Source: Acidobacteriota bacterium (GTDB lineage: Bacteria > Acidobacteriota > Vicinamibacteria > Vicinamibacterales > CAVVIG01). From it: a DNA stretch of 51,425 nt. Shown here piece by piece: positions 18,212 through 45,200 of the stretch. Every line of letters starts with the position of its first letter. Within the stretch, counting starts at the first letter, position 1. The DNA lies in contig JAGWRA010000148.1 of NCBI GenBank assembly GCA_028876655.1, positions 1 through 51,425 on the forward strand, written 5' to 3'. The translations under genes were made by a program, and so were the position numbers. The notes under the pieces were generated by a model. That model was given only the letters and a program-made list of their open reading frames with translations, was not told the DNA's origin and searched no databases.

Positions 18212-19381
18212 CTACAGTTCCCGCAGCGCCACCGACACCGGCCGACGGGCGGCGCGGATGGCGGGCGGCGTGCCGCCGACGAGGCCCATGAAGAGCGCGA
18301 ACAGGAGGCCGCCGGCGAGCAGGCCGGGGGTGACGCGGAAGGCGAAGGCGATGTTGGAGAAGGTCTGGAAGTTCAGCGTGCTGGCCGTGAAGCCGTTCAG
18401 CGGCAGCACCGCGAGCCCGCCGAGGATCCCGCCGATGCCGGCGATGACGATCGCCTCGATCATGAACGACACGACGACGCTCAGCGGTCCGAAGCCGATC
18501 GCCCGCATGGTCGCGACCTCGCGCGCGCGCTCGGCCACCGCCGAGTACATCGTGTTGAGCGCGCCGAACACCGCGCCAATCCCCATGATGGCCCCCACGA
18601 TCGTCCCGAGCACGGTGATGAGCGTCGTCAGCGCCTGCGACTGCTTCCGGTAGTACTCCTGCTCCTGCTGCACGTCGACGTTCAGGCGCGGGTCGGCGAT
18701 GAGGGCGTCCTTGAAAGCCTGGAACGCGGCGGGCGAGGTGAGGTGGATGGTCACCGACTGATAGATGTTCGTCGGCCGGTTGTAGACCTGATCGAGGATC
18801 GTCGCGTCGGCCCAGACCTCGGAGTCGAACGCCGTCCCCCCGGCATCGAAGACGCCGACGATGGTCCACGTCCCGCCGCCGAACGTCACCGTCCGTCCCA
18901 GGCCCAGCCCCTGGTAGGTGTTCACCGCATTGCGGCCGACGACGAGCTCGTTGAGGCCGGCGCGCAGGAAGCGCCCGGCCAGCATGTGGACGGTCGGCCG
19001 GACCTCGAGGGCGCGGGCGGAGACGCCGCGGACCTGGACGTTCGCGTCGGTCCCGGTCGACACCAGCGGGAAGGGAGCCATCACGATGACTTCGGGACTG
19101 ACGATCGGCTGCCCGTCGTGGCGCGCGACGCCCGGGGCGCTCTCGATGATCCGCTCCTGATCGAGGGTGACCGCGCTGACCATCTCGCTGCTGGCGCCGG
19201 CCCGCATGACGAGCGCGTTGCCGGGCGAGCCCGACTGGACGAGCGTCGCCTGGAACCCGCGGGCCATGGCGAGCATGGCGACGAAGACGCCGACGGCGCC
19301 GGCAATCCCGAGCACGGCGACGATGGACGAGGTCCACCGCCGGCGGATACTGCGCACGTTGTAGATGAGCGGGATTGCCAC
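18212..19381 (-). CDS. ABC transporter permease (FtsX/MacB type), second permease
   Basis: The 389-residue protein starts at 19381 (MAIPLIYNVRSIRRRWTSSI). It has one N-terminal membrane helix (about 18-42), a large periplasmic MacB-PCD domain (about 43-260) and three C-terminal helices (about 265-375), typical of type VII (MacB/LolCE) transporters. The FtsX-type coupling segment reads AVAERAREVATMRAIGFGPL. The C terminus ends RRPVSVALREL. It lies 16 bases after the other permease gene, so the two likely form a heterodimer with the ATPase at 20540-21265. Confidence 0.9.
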   Translation of the reverse strand: MAIPLIYNVRSIRRRWTSSIVAVLGIAGAVGVFVAMLAMARGFQATLVQSGSPGNALVMRAGASSEMVSAVTLDQERIIESAPGVARHDGQPIVSPEVIVMAPFPLVSTGTDANVQVRGVSARALEVRPTVHMLAGRFLRAGLNELVVGRNAVNTYQGLGLGRTVTFGGGTWTIVGVFDAGGTAFDSEVWADATILDQVYNRPTNIYQSVTIHLTSPAAFQAFKDALIADPRLNVDVQQEQEYYRKQSQALTTLITVLGTIVGAIMGIGAVFGALNTMYSAVAERAREVATMRAIGFGPLSVVVSFMIEAIVIAGIGGILGGLAVLPLNGFTASTLNFQTFSNIAFAFRVTPGLLAGGLLFALFMGLVGGTPPAIRAARRPVSVALREL

Positions 19382-19397: not shown

Positions 19398-20543
19398 TCA
19401 GATCCGGCGGAGCGCGTCGACCACCTTCAGCCGGCTGGCGGCCAGCGCCGGCAGTAACCCGGCCAGCACGCCGACGGCGAGCGCCAGGCCGATGCCGAGC
19501 GCCATGTCGGCCGCCGGCAGGTAGAAGAGCGGCAGCAGCCCGTGCGTCGGATCGCCGCCGAGCGTCAGCAGCTTGGCGAGGGCGACGCCCATGAGGCCGC
19601 CGGCCAGCGCGATGACCACCGACTCGGCCATGACGTACAGCAGGACGAACCGTTCGGAGTACCCGATGGCCTTGAGGATGGCCAGTTCCGCCGTCCGCTC
19701 GCGCACGGTAATGGCCATCGTGTTGCCGGTGACCAGCAACAGCGTGAAGAAGACGACGCCGCCGATGCTGAGGATGAGGAACTCGATGTTCCCCATCTGC
19801 TTCGCGAAGCCGGCCGCAAACGCCTTCTCGGTGTCCGTCTTCGTCTCCCAGGGCGAGTTGGCGAACGCCCCGTCGATCTGCTTCGCCATGGTGACGGCCC
19901 GGTCGGGGCTGTCGAGCCGCACGACGTACCACCCCACCATGTTCCGCGCGTAGCGCGTCGTCCGGCTCTCGTTGATGTAGTTGTAGTGGATCCAGAGCTG
20001 CGACGTGTCGTCGGTGTCCTTCGATCCGTCGTAGATGCCGCGGAGGTTGAACTCCCAGCTGCCCGGATAGATCGTGCCGCGGATCGGGATCCGGTCGCCG
20101 ACCGTCCAGCCGAACCGTGCCGCCAGGCCGCGGCCGGCGATCACGCCCTGGCGGTCGCCGAGGAACGCCTTCCACTGATCGGCGGGGATCCGGTACTCGC
20201 CGTACACCTGCCGCCACGTGGACGGGTCGATGACGAACTGCGGGAAGAAGTTCCGCTCGTCCTGGTAGACGCCGCCGAACCAGGAGACGTGCGTGACGTC
20301 CCTGATGCCCGACATCGCCGACAGCCGCTGGTCGTAGGAGAGCGGCAGCGGCTGGATGAGCGACATCCGGTTGGTGACGATGAGCCGGTCGGCGCCGGCG
20401 ACCTCCACCCCCTGGTTGAAGGCCAGCCGGATGATGACCAGCAGACCGAAGAGGAACATCGCGACCGCGAACGATCCGAGGGTGAGCAGCGTCCGGACCT
20501 TCTTGCGGAACAGGTTCACGCGAAGCAGGCGGAGGTACTTCAT
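19398..20543 (-). CDS. ABC transporter permease (FtsX/MacB type), first permease
   Basis: The 381-residue protein starts at the ATG at 20543 ([20 protein letters not shown]), which overlaps the ATPase stop by four bases (ATGA). It has one N-terminal helix, a periplasmic MacB-PCD domain including WFGGVYQDERNFFPQFVIDP, and three C-terminal helices. The coupling segment is VRERTAELAILKAIGYSERF, and the end is LKVVDALRRI. Together with the second permease it would move periplasmic or membrane substrates rather than import solutes. The substrate is not known. Confidence 0.9.
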   Translation of the reverse strand: MKYLRLLRVNLFRKKVRTLLTLGSFAVAMFLFGLLVIIRLAFNQGVEVAGADRLIVTNRMSLIQPLPLSYDQRLSAMSGIRDVTHVSWFGGVYQDERNFFPQFVIDPSTWRQVYGEYRIPADQWKAFLGDRQGVIAGRGLAARFGWTVGDRIPIRGTIYPGSWEFNLRGIYDGSKDTDDTSQLWIHYNYINESRTTRYARNMVGWYVVRLDSPDRAVTMAKQIDGAFANSPWETKTDTEKAFAAGFAKQMGNIEFLILSIGGVVFFTLLLVTGNTMAITVRERTAELAILKAIGYSERFVLLYVMAESVVIALAGGLMGVALAKLLTLGGDPTHGLLPLFYLPAADMALGIGLALAVGVLAGLLPALAASRLKVVDALRRI

Positions 20544-21265
20544 CGGACGAGGTCCGCCCGCTGCGCCTCGACGAGGACGCCCTTGTCGAGGTGCAGCAGC
20601 ACGTGAGCCCGCTCGGCGGCCCGGGGGTCGTGCGTGACCAGCAGCACGGTCTTCCGGTACTCGCTGACCAGCTGCGCGATCATCTCGAGCACCTCGTCCG
20701 CACTCCGGCGATCGAGGTCGCCGGTCGGCTCGTCGCACAGCAGGAACGTCGGGTCGGTGACGACCGCGCGCGCGATGGCCACGCGCTGCTCCTGGCCGCC
20801 CGACAGCTCGCGCGGGTAGTGGTGCATCCGGTCGGCGAGGCCGACCACCGCGAGGGCCGTCTCGACGTGCTCGCGGCGCTCCCGGCGCGACAGCCGCGTG
20901 AGCAGCAGCGGCAACTCGACGTTCTGGTACGCCGTGAGCACCGGCAGCAGGTTGAACATCTGGAAGACGAAGCCGACGTGGCGCGCGCGCCACGCCGTGA
21001 GCTTCCCCGCCGACATGCTGGTGATCTCGTCGCCCGCCACCCGGATGCTCCCCGTCGTCGGCACGTCGAGGCCGCCGAGCAGGTTCAGCAGCGTCGTCTT
21101 CCCCGATCCGCTCGGCCCCATGAAGGCGACGAAATCGCCCGGGTCGACGTCGAGGTTGAGGCCCTGCAGGACGTGGATCTCCTCGCTCCCCCGGCGGTAG
21201 GTCTTGCCGAGGTTGCGGACCGTCACCAGGCTCGTGCCGTCGCCGCCACCGTCCACGCGCACCAT
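20540..21265 (-). CDS. ABC transporter ATPase (MacB/LolD type)
   Basis: The 241-residue ATPase has Walker [12 protein letters not shown], a Q-loop in [11 protein letters not shown], signature [15 protein letters not shown], Walker [13 protein letters not shown] and the switch His in LLVTHDPR. The DEPTGDLD form and the NLLP segment after the Q-loop are typical of the MacB/LolD group. It starts nine bases after the adaptor stop and overlaps the first permease gene, so the complex is made from one transcript. Confidence 0.94.
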
Positions 21266-21274
21266 GTCAGCGCC

Positions 21275-22537
21275 TCACTGTCCGCCGGTCCGCGTCGCCG
21301 ACACCGGCTGGCCGTCGCGCAGCGCGGCCGGTCCGGCCGTCACCACCAGGTCGCCGGGCGCGATGCCGGCGAGGATCTCCACCCGATCGCCCAGCGTCCG
21401 TCCCGGGCGGACGGCCCGGCGCTCCAGGACGCCGTCGCGCACGCGGAAGACCACCGGCGTCCCCCCGACCGTCCGGATCGCGGCCGCCGGGACGAGTGCC
21501 TCGGCCGCCGGCGGGGGCGCGCCGCCCGTCGCCGCCGCGTCGGCGCCGAGGAAGGCGACCTTCACGCCCATGTCGGGCAGGATGCGGGGGTCGAGGTGGT
21601 CGAAGGTGGCGCGGACCTTCACCGTTCCCTTCTCGCGGTCCGCGGTCGGGATGATGGCGCGGACGCGGCCGGGGATCTGCCAGTCGGGATAGGCGTCGAG
21701 CGTCGCGACGACGGGCTGGCCCGGGGTGACGCGCGCGATGTAGTTCTCGTTCACGTCGACCTCGATCTCGAGCGACGTCATGTCGACGATCGTGGCGATG
21801 CCGGTGCGGGTGTAGCCGCCGCCGGCGGAGATCGGGGAGACCATCTCGCCCGGCTGGGCATCCTTCGAGACGACCATGCCGGTGAACGGCGCGACGACGC
21901 GGCAGTTGGCGATGTTCTGCTCGGCGACGGCGATGCGGGCGTCAGCCGCCTTCACCTGTGCCTCGGTCGCGGCGATCTGCGCCTGAAGGCTCTCGGCCGC
22001 GGTCCGTGCCGTGTCGAGCGCCTCTTCGGTCTGGATGCCGGCCTTCACCAGCCCCTCGGTGCGGGCCAGCTCGCGCCGCGCGTTGGCGAGCTCGACGCGC
22101 AGCTGCCCGAGCCCGGCCGCCGTGGCGTTGCGGTCGGCGCGCGCCGTGGCCAGCGCCACCCGGTCGTCGGTGTCGTCGAGCTGCGCCAGCAGCTGCCCCT
22201 GCTGCACGCGCATCCCCTCGTCGATGTACACGCCGGTGACCTTCCCGGTGATCTTCGCGGCGACCGTCGCCCGCCGCCGCGGCGTGACGTAGCCGCTCGC
22301 GTTCAGCAGGGTGACCCGCGCGTCGGCCGTCGGGCCCGGCGCCTGCGCGGCCGCCACGGTGACCGTCACGGTGCGATCGCGCCACAGCGACACCGCACCG
22401 CCCGCCGCCGCGATCACCACCACCGCGCCCGCCAGTCCGAGCAGCCACCGCCCGGCCGGCCGCCGGCCGCGCTGGCGGTCGTCAATCCGCAGCTTCGCCA
22501 GGTCCGGCCGCGGCGTCTCACCCGTTCCATTCGTCAT
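21275..22537 (-). CDS. MacA-like periplasmic adaptor (HlyD/RND membrane fusion family)
   Basis: I start the 420-residue protein at the ATG at 22537 (MTNGTGETPRPDLAKLRID). Upstream in-frame starts at 22582 and 22657 would place the repeat cluster inside the gene. It has one membrane helix (WLLGLAGAVVVIAAAGGAV), the lipoyl half-motifs ATVAAKITGKVTGVYIDEGM and CRVVAPFTGMVVSKDAQPGE, a helical hairpin between them (about residues 125-195), then beta-barrel and membrane-proximal domains. It would link the inner-membrane ABC complex to an outer-membrane channel. No TolC-type gene is present in the window. Confidence 0.9.
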   Translation of the reverse strand: MTNGTGETPRPDLAKLRIDDRQRGRRPAGRWLLGLAGAVVVIAAAGGAVSLWRDRTVTVTVAAAQAPGPTADARVTLLNASGYVTPRRRATVAAKITGKVTGVYIDEGMRVQQGQLLAQLDDTDDRVALATARADRNATAAGLGQLRVELANARRELARTEGLVKAGIQTEEALDTARTAAESLQAQIAATEAQVKAADARIAVAEQNIANCRVVAPFTGMVVSKDAQPGEMVSPISAGGGYTRTGIATIVDMTSLEIEVDVNENYIARVTPGQPVVATLDAYPDWQIPGRVRAIIPTADREKGTVKVRATFDHLDPRILPDMGVKVAFLGADAAATGGAPPPAAEALVPAAAIRTVGGTPVVFRVRDGVLERRAVRPGRTLGDRVEILAGIAPGDLVVTAGPAALRDGQPVSATRTGGQ

Positions 22538-22568
22538 CGCTCGCGAGCCTCGATCGCGCATGCCGTCA

Positions 22569-22615
22569 GGGTTGTCGATCATTTCAACAACCCGTGCGTC
22601 GGGTTGTCCAGACAA
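22569..22615 (-). promoter_or_regulatory. Operator-like cluster of inverted repeats upstream of the export operon
   Basis: Three copies of one heptamer alternate in direction: GGGTTGT at 22569-22575, its complement ACAACCC at 22587-22593, and GGGTTGT at 22601-22607. The last copy runs into a perfect inverted repeat TTGTC-CA-GACAA (22604-22615). The cluster lies 32-78 bases upstream of the adaptor start and 79 or more bases past the ACT-protein stop. Repeated half-sites at similar spacing are typical of binding sites for TetR, GntR or similar repressors, but no such regulator gene is adjacent. Confidence 0.55.
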
Positions 22616-22693
22616 TTCGGCGTGAAGGCCGGGGAGATCGCGCCCCACCGCCCACACCAGACGACCGACGGGCGCCGACGGTTCCGTGAACCG

Positions 22694-23347
22694 TCAATAG
22701 CGGCGCTTCTGCTGGCGGACGATGTCGAACTTCGCGGTGTCGGCAATGGCCATGACGGCCATGACGCCGGCCTGGACCGGATCGGAGACGACGAGATCGG
22801 CGGCATCGGGGACGCTGCCCGCCATGTTCAGCGAGATCACCGGCAGCCCCTTCGCGCGGACCTCGCCGACGGCGCGCGTGATCTCCCCGCCCATCAGCGA
22901 CCCGGCGAGGACCAGGGCGCGGACGCGCGGCAGGCGGACGACGGCGCGAACGGCCGCCGCCAGCTCGTGCTCCCCGACGAGCGGAATGGTGTCGATCGAA
23001 ATCCGCTCGCCACGGATGTTGTGGCGATCGGCTTCGGCAATCGCCCCCATCGCCACCTGGCCGACCTGCGCGCCACCGCCCATCACGATGATCCGCTTGC
23101 CGTAGATGCGGGCGAACGACGGCGTGGCGGCCAGGTCGACGATGCCGGGCGTGCGCCGCAGCTCCTCGTACAGCGCTCCCGGCTCTCCGTCGAGCTGGAA
23201 CTCGAGGTACACCTCGGCGTCGCGATCGGCGTGCCGGATGAGATCGATATAGCTGATGTTGGCCTGGTGATCCGCGAGCGCCTTCGTGATGGCGAAGAGC
23301 ATCCCCGGACGATCCGAGACGGTGAGCAGGACGGCGTGGGTCGGCAT
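22694..23347 (-). CDS. ACT-domain regulator-like protein with DUF5612-type C-terminal domain
   Basis: The 217-residue protein has an N-terminal ACT domain (VLLTVSDRPGMLFAITKALA, then ISYIDLIRHADRDAEVYLEF, about residues 5-75). ACT domains bind amino acids and control metabolic enzymes. The C-terminal half has a Rossmann-like start RIIVMGGGAQVGQVAMGAIA and later RALVLAGSLMGGEITRAVGE and VISLNMAGSVPDAADLVV. This two-part layout resembles archaeal ACT-DUF5612 proteins. No known catalytic residues are evident. It is on the same strand as the export operon but separated by 156 bases that hold the repeat cluster. Confidence 0.75.
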   Translation of the reverse strand: MPTHAVLLTVSDRPGMLFAITKALADHQANISYIDLIRHADRDAEVYLEFQLDGEPGALYEELRRTPGIVDLAATPSFARIYGKRIIVMGGGAQVGQVAMGAIAEADRHNIRGERISIDTIPLVGEHELAAAVRAVVRLPRVRALVLAGSLMGGEITRAVGEVRAKGLPVISLNMAGSVPDAADLVVSDPVQAGVMAVMAIADTAKFDIVRQQKRRY

Positions 23348-31911: not shown

Positions 31912-31917
31912 CGCGGC

Positions 31918-31951
31918 GACGGACGGCGGCGGTCATCCGCCACCGTCCGTC
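31918..31951. terminator. Bidirectional terminator hairpin
   Basis: GACGGACGG (31918-31926) pairs with CCGTCCGTC (31943-31951). Inside, GGCGG (31928-31932) pairs with CCGCC (31937-31941) around a TCAT loop, with one C/A mismatch between the two stems. It fills the 43-base gap between the converging stops at 31911 and 31955, so it likely ends both transcripts. Confidence 0.7.
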
Positions 31952-31954
31952 GTC

Positions 31955-45162: not shown

Positions 45163-45200
45163 CGGTTGCGGGCTCCGGCGTGTCCCGGAGCCCGCAACCG
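45163..45200 (-). terminator. Perfect 16-bp terminator hairpin
   Basis: CGGTTGCGGGCTCCGG (45163-45178) and CCGGAGCCCGCAACCG (45185-45200) are exact reverse complements with the 6-base loop CGTGTC. It lies 22 bases after the stop of the TonB-dependent receptor and upstream of ureA on the same strand. It is the strongest hairpin I saw in the window. No T-run follows, but stem length alone suggests termination or mRNA end protection. Confidence 0.75.

Follow-up and report, generated by a model that had tools for sequence, protein, structure and literature searches.

The export operon considered here lies on the minus strand of a 51,425-nucleotide stretch of DNA from an Acidobacteriota bacterium, which we refer to as the window. 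Its first gene encodes an adaptor of 420 aa (21275-22537) with HlyD_D23 and HlyD_3 Pfam domains, whose start codon is probably right because the orthologues begin at about the same protein position. Domain matches assign the genes that follow to an ABC ATPase of 241 aa (20540-21265), an FtsX/MacB-type permease (permease 1, 19398-20615) and a permease of 389 aa with MacB_PCD and FtsX domains (permease 2, 18212-19381). An HlyD adaptor, an ABC ATPase and MacB_PCD/FtsX permeases, the combination that marks a MacAB-type export operon, were found together in the domain search, bearing out the four-gene MacAB-like operon that an earlier note on this DNA had placed downstream of a cluster of repeats. 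Both the Pfam domains and the order of adaptor, ATPase and permease are like those of MacAB-type ABC exporters, with the difference that here the ATPase and each of the two permeases are encoded by genes of their own; no TolC-type outer-membrane gene was noticed among the genes of the operon. The same gene order is kept in a congener. Beyond the genus, the closest orthologues of the adaptor (L074-L135) belong to Terriglobia and Rokubacteria, at 56-60% identity compared with about 50% within its own family, and this closer relationship suggests that the operon may have been acquired by horizontal transfer.

Upstream of the operon, and also on the minus strand, is a gene for a 217 aa protein with matches to the ACT and DUF5612 domains (22694-23347), separated from the adaptor gene by a spacer of 156 bp (22538-22693, minus strand). 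A perfect stem-loop without a T run spans the ACT stop codon on the same strand (22675-22697) and is a possible end, or terminator, of the ACT transcript; its position at the end of that gene suggests that the export operon has its own promoter. Long near-perfect stem-loops of 15-17 pairs also occur elsewhere in the window, at 20560-20597, 31917-31952 and 45163-45200, the last of which, with 16 pairs on either strand, is a possible terminator.

The spacer contains the repeat cluster, whose plus-strand sequence from 22569 reads GGGTTGTCGATCATTTCAACAACCCGTGCGTCGGGTTGTCCAGACAA in this window. The half-site GGGTTGT occurs twice, within GGGTTGTC at 22569-22576 and again within GGGTTGTC at 22601-22608, and between these lies the inverted copy ACAACCC at 22587-22593, which serves as an arm of both inverted pairs. 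The first pair is GGGTTGT-N11-ACAACCC (22569-22593), which, read as RNA on the minus strand, would fold into a hairpin of 10 pairs, one of them U.G, around a 5-nt loop, and the second, ACAACCCG-N5-CGGGTTGT (22587-22607), has its left arm in common with the first, such that the two hairpins are mutually exclusive. The second GGGTTGT runs into a 12-bp palindrome, TTGTC-CA-GACAA (TTGTCCAGACAA, 22604-22615), and in total three alternating 7-mer copies and this palindrome are packed into 47 bp. All four elements are present at the positions first reported for them, and the reported distance of 32-78 bases to the adaptor start agrees with an ATG at 22537. The half-sites were also said to be regularly spaced, which is not the case, as their starts are 18 and then 14 bases apart. 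Control regions are usually less G+C-rich than their surroundings, and the repeat stretch has a G+C content of 53% vs 67% for the whole spacer.

The most likely single reading of the cluster, to which we would give a probability of about 40%, is that of an operator-type site confined to this lineage and recognised by a repressor whose gene is not linked to the operon. On this reading a dimeric helix-turn-helix repressor would attach to the GGGTTGT/ACAACCC half-sites and prevent transcription of the adaptor, ATPase and permease genes until its ligand is present. Multi-half-site operators of the TetR/GntR type that precede efflux operons likewise place their palindromic half-sites no more than about 80 bases from the first gene, and here too inverted half-sites lie close to where the putative target operon starts, the promoter itself having escaped detection. 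The rarity of such a triple in shuffled spacers, the lower G+C content, the location 32-78 bases before a conserved operon and the stem-loop that closes the ACT gene all argue for this reading. Weighing against it are the lack of conservation of the repeats, their occurrence at a single genomic site, the absence of a sigma-70-like promoter from the spacer and the post hoc manner in which the feature was chosen. Unlike TetR/GntR operators, the cluster has no adjacent regulator gene, no second genomic site and no conservation.

The search for a regulator bears directly upon this. The main proteins predicted in the window include no recognisable helix-turn-helix regulator, of the TetR/GntR families or otherwise, in keeping with the original remark that no TetR or GntR gene is adjacent. 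The genome as a whole has seven TetR and six GntR matches (four of the latter above the family cut-off), and scanning these 7 + 6 loci revealed no convincing similar site, the best matches being scattered and having four mismatches to the longer patterns or two to the short palindrome. A site shared with the regulator's own promoter, as TetR/GntR-type operators have, was accordingly absent across the scanned TetR/GntR loci. The 4.19-Mb genome has a single exact copy of the 25-bp palindrome, and searches for a regulon using the 12-bp palindrome (≤2 mismatches) or the 25-bp repeat (≤3 mismatches) produced no coherent set; in a control with the patterns read backwards, counts for the 12-bp palindrome were similar, and those for the 25-bp repeat, whose relaxed matches were scattered, were 39 against 76. 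A second exact copy of the 12-mer TTGTCTGGACAA is present in a 23S-5S rRNA spacer of the same genome (L054 1135-1146, G000:C22). The ACT-domain protein had been put forward as a possible effector-sensing regulator, a suggestion that finds no support in our data: it has no DNA-binding domain, and in the relatives examined it does not lie beside this adaptor. It occurs in 27 of 60 genomes. A distant adaptor (30% identity) is found near it in one relative (L051).

Almost as likely as an operator is that the cluster arose by coincidence, without selection, in a G+C-rich spacer that changes fast and has many potential stem-loops. We defined a triple as alternating copies of one 7-mer within 50 bases and compared its occurrence with dinucleotide-preserving shuffles. 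A triple appeared in 39 of 20,000 shuffles of the 156-bp spacer (about 0.2%), which speaks against coincidence, but this rarity is merely suggestive because the feature was chosen by eye, in a window that offers many spacers and in which any striking pattern would have been eligible. The whole window contains seven alternating triples, a number attained by 3 of 200 shuffles, which average 1.9; the six remaining triples, G+C-rich ones among them, all fall outside the 156-bp spacer. Hairpins of at least 10 pairs are also common: each strand of the window has dozens of them, and 446 of 5,000 shuffled spacers contain one. For its own spacer the cluster is unusual, yet it is not beyond chance once the post hoc choice is counted.

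Conservation does little to distance the cluster from coincidence. Upstream regions of 29 orthologous operons from relatives were oriented and read, and none contains the cluster; nor is it present ahead of 55 orthologues from GTDB genomes, a set that overlaps the first by a few genomes. Single half-sites turn up twice among these upstream regions. In the sole congener compared, which has a 67% identical adaptor and the same operon, another gene stands upstream and the spacer ahead of the adaptor, in which the repeats are not present, is only a few dozen bases long. Matches to GGGTTGT-N3-20-ACAACCC in relatives fall for the most part within long open frames, with none close to an exporter of this type. 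The earlier note had named a lack of conservation upstream of orthologous operons as grounds for abandoning the idea of an operator region, and it was lacking in every orthologous operon compared, a set with one congener in it. What stands of that idea is the presence of inverted half-sites near the operon start; conservation among orthologues and a matching site at a TetR/GntR locus do not.

We also considered the cluster at the level of RNA, where the adaptor mRNA could carry, in its 5' leader, hairpins that exclude each other and influence how stable the message is or how well it is translated. In the mRNA the stem at 22569-22593 is complete over 10 pairs by virtue of the U.G pair, whose counterpart on the opposite strand is a C.A mismatch, and it competes for its shared arm with the stem at 22587-22607. 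Folding is strong over 31 nt (z -4.8) and over the 66-nt repeat stretch (z -4.0), the latter having been selected after the fact, although the plus strand folds well too (z -3.1) and the whole leader is of ordinary stability, folding no better than shuffles (z -1.18), as would also be expected of a chance arrangement. There is no U run, the start-codon region is not overlapped, an Rfam search gave no match and the searched genomes supplied no homologous leader for covariation. We regard a leader RNA of this sort as less likely than an operator or chance, though a close rival to them, and it is highly improbable that the hairpins sharing the arm at 22587-22593 constitute an undescribed kind of leader RNA switch that controls the exporter in this genus. 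Operator, chance and leader hairpin alike are none of them novel in kind. Where transcription might begin was sought within the 156-bp spacer, in which no sigma-70-like promoter was found; a canonical -10 box is absent because there is not one TA dinucleotide there. An ECF-type candidate, GGAAC-N17-CGTC at 22660-22685, was set aside since this pattern occurs at chance frequency (3 in the window vs 2.8 expected).

A DNA search of 60 genomes with the spacer returned only itself and a 46-bp stretch inside an iscU gene, raising the question of whether the cluster derives from a former iscU gene. On the plus strand, VRVVDHFNNPCVG resembles the IscU start KVVDHFNNPRNVG, the match to the iscU of one relative has 78% identity over 46 bp (E 1e-3), and an IscU of the family type was not found in the host genome or the congener. 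However, relatives in the same family carry KVIDHYENPRNVG, not VVDHFNNP, the match ends after 46 bp with an E-value near chance over 60 genomes, and an iscS query had no match in the window. We rejected this origin as very improbable indeed, the 46-bp match being probably a coincidence. As a separate observation, IscU of the MAYSxKVIDHYENPRNVG type, which most other searched family members have, was not found in the host genome (G000) or the congener (G001), where there was a SufU-like match only; judging from these searches, the genus may have lost an isc-type scaffold.

Returning to the operator reading, a functional cluster would add another local operator, before an exporter with no known substrate, and would in itself carry little weight. 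Of more interest is a LexA-type box, TTTCGCyTTTTnTTYGCAT, that falls between the -35 and -10 elements of what is probably the adaptor promoter in several orthologous operons. It is carried by at least five Acidobacteriota genomes (G040, L005/L144; G050, L027/L151; G045, L018; L118; L133), and in L005, L018 and L027 it stands about 65-46 bases ahead of the adaptor start. The motif was first noticed in the exporter upstream regions and then compared with lexA promoters, using a LexA weight matrix made up solely of lexA promoter sequences, from five Vicinamibacterales genomes, with the exporter sites excluded. The boxes in the exporter promoters score 26.4-28.0 bits, similar to the lexA promoters themselves at 26.0-30.4 bits, and the top score among 4,000 shuffled upstream regions is 19.6 bits. 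Acidobacterium capsulatum is known to have a LexA box (Mazon et al. 2006, as cited in PMC7739468, where it appears beside direct-repeat LexA motifs). Our literature search found no paper connecting this export operon with LexA.

A box similar to this direct-repeat type of the Acidobacteriota is thus found at orthologous operon promoters elsewhere but is missing before the operon studied here: in its genome, lexA has the box, whereas the exporter operon scores 2.0 bits. These sequence comparisons predict SOS control of the exporter in the box-carrying genomes and not in this one, and they suggest that control of a conserved operon may have been rewired between lineages, with a LexA-type box in several and none here. 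LexA-type control, if true, would connect the exporter with DNA damage in the lineages concerned, which gives a lead to the exported substrate.
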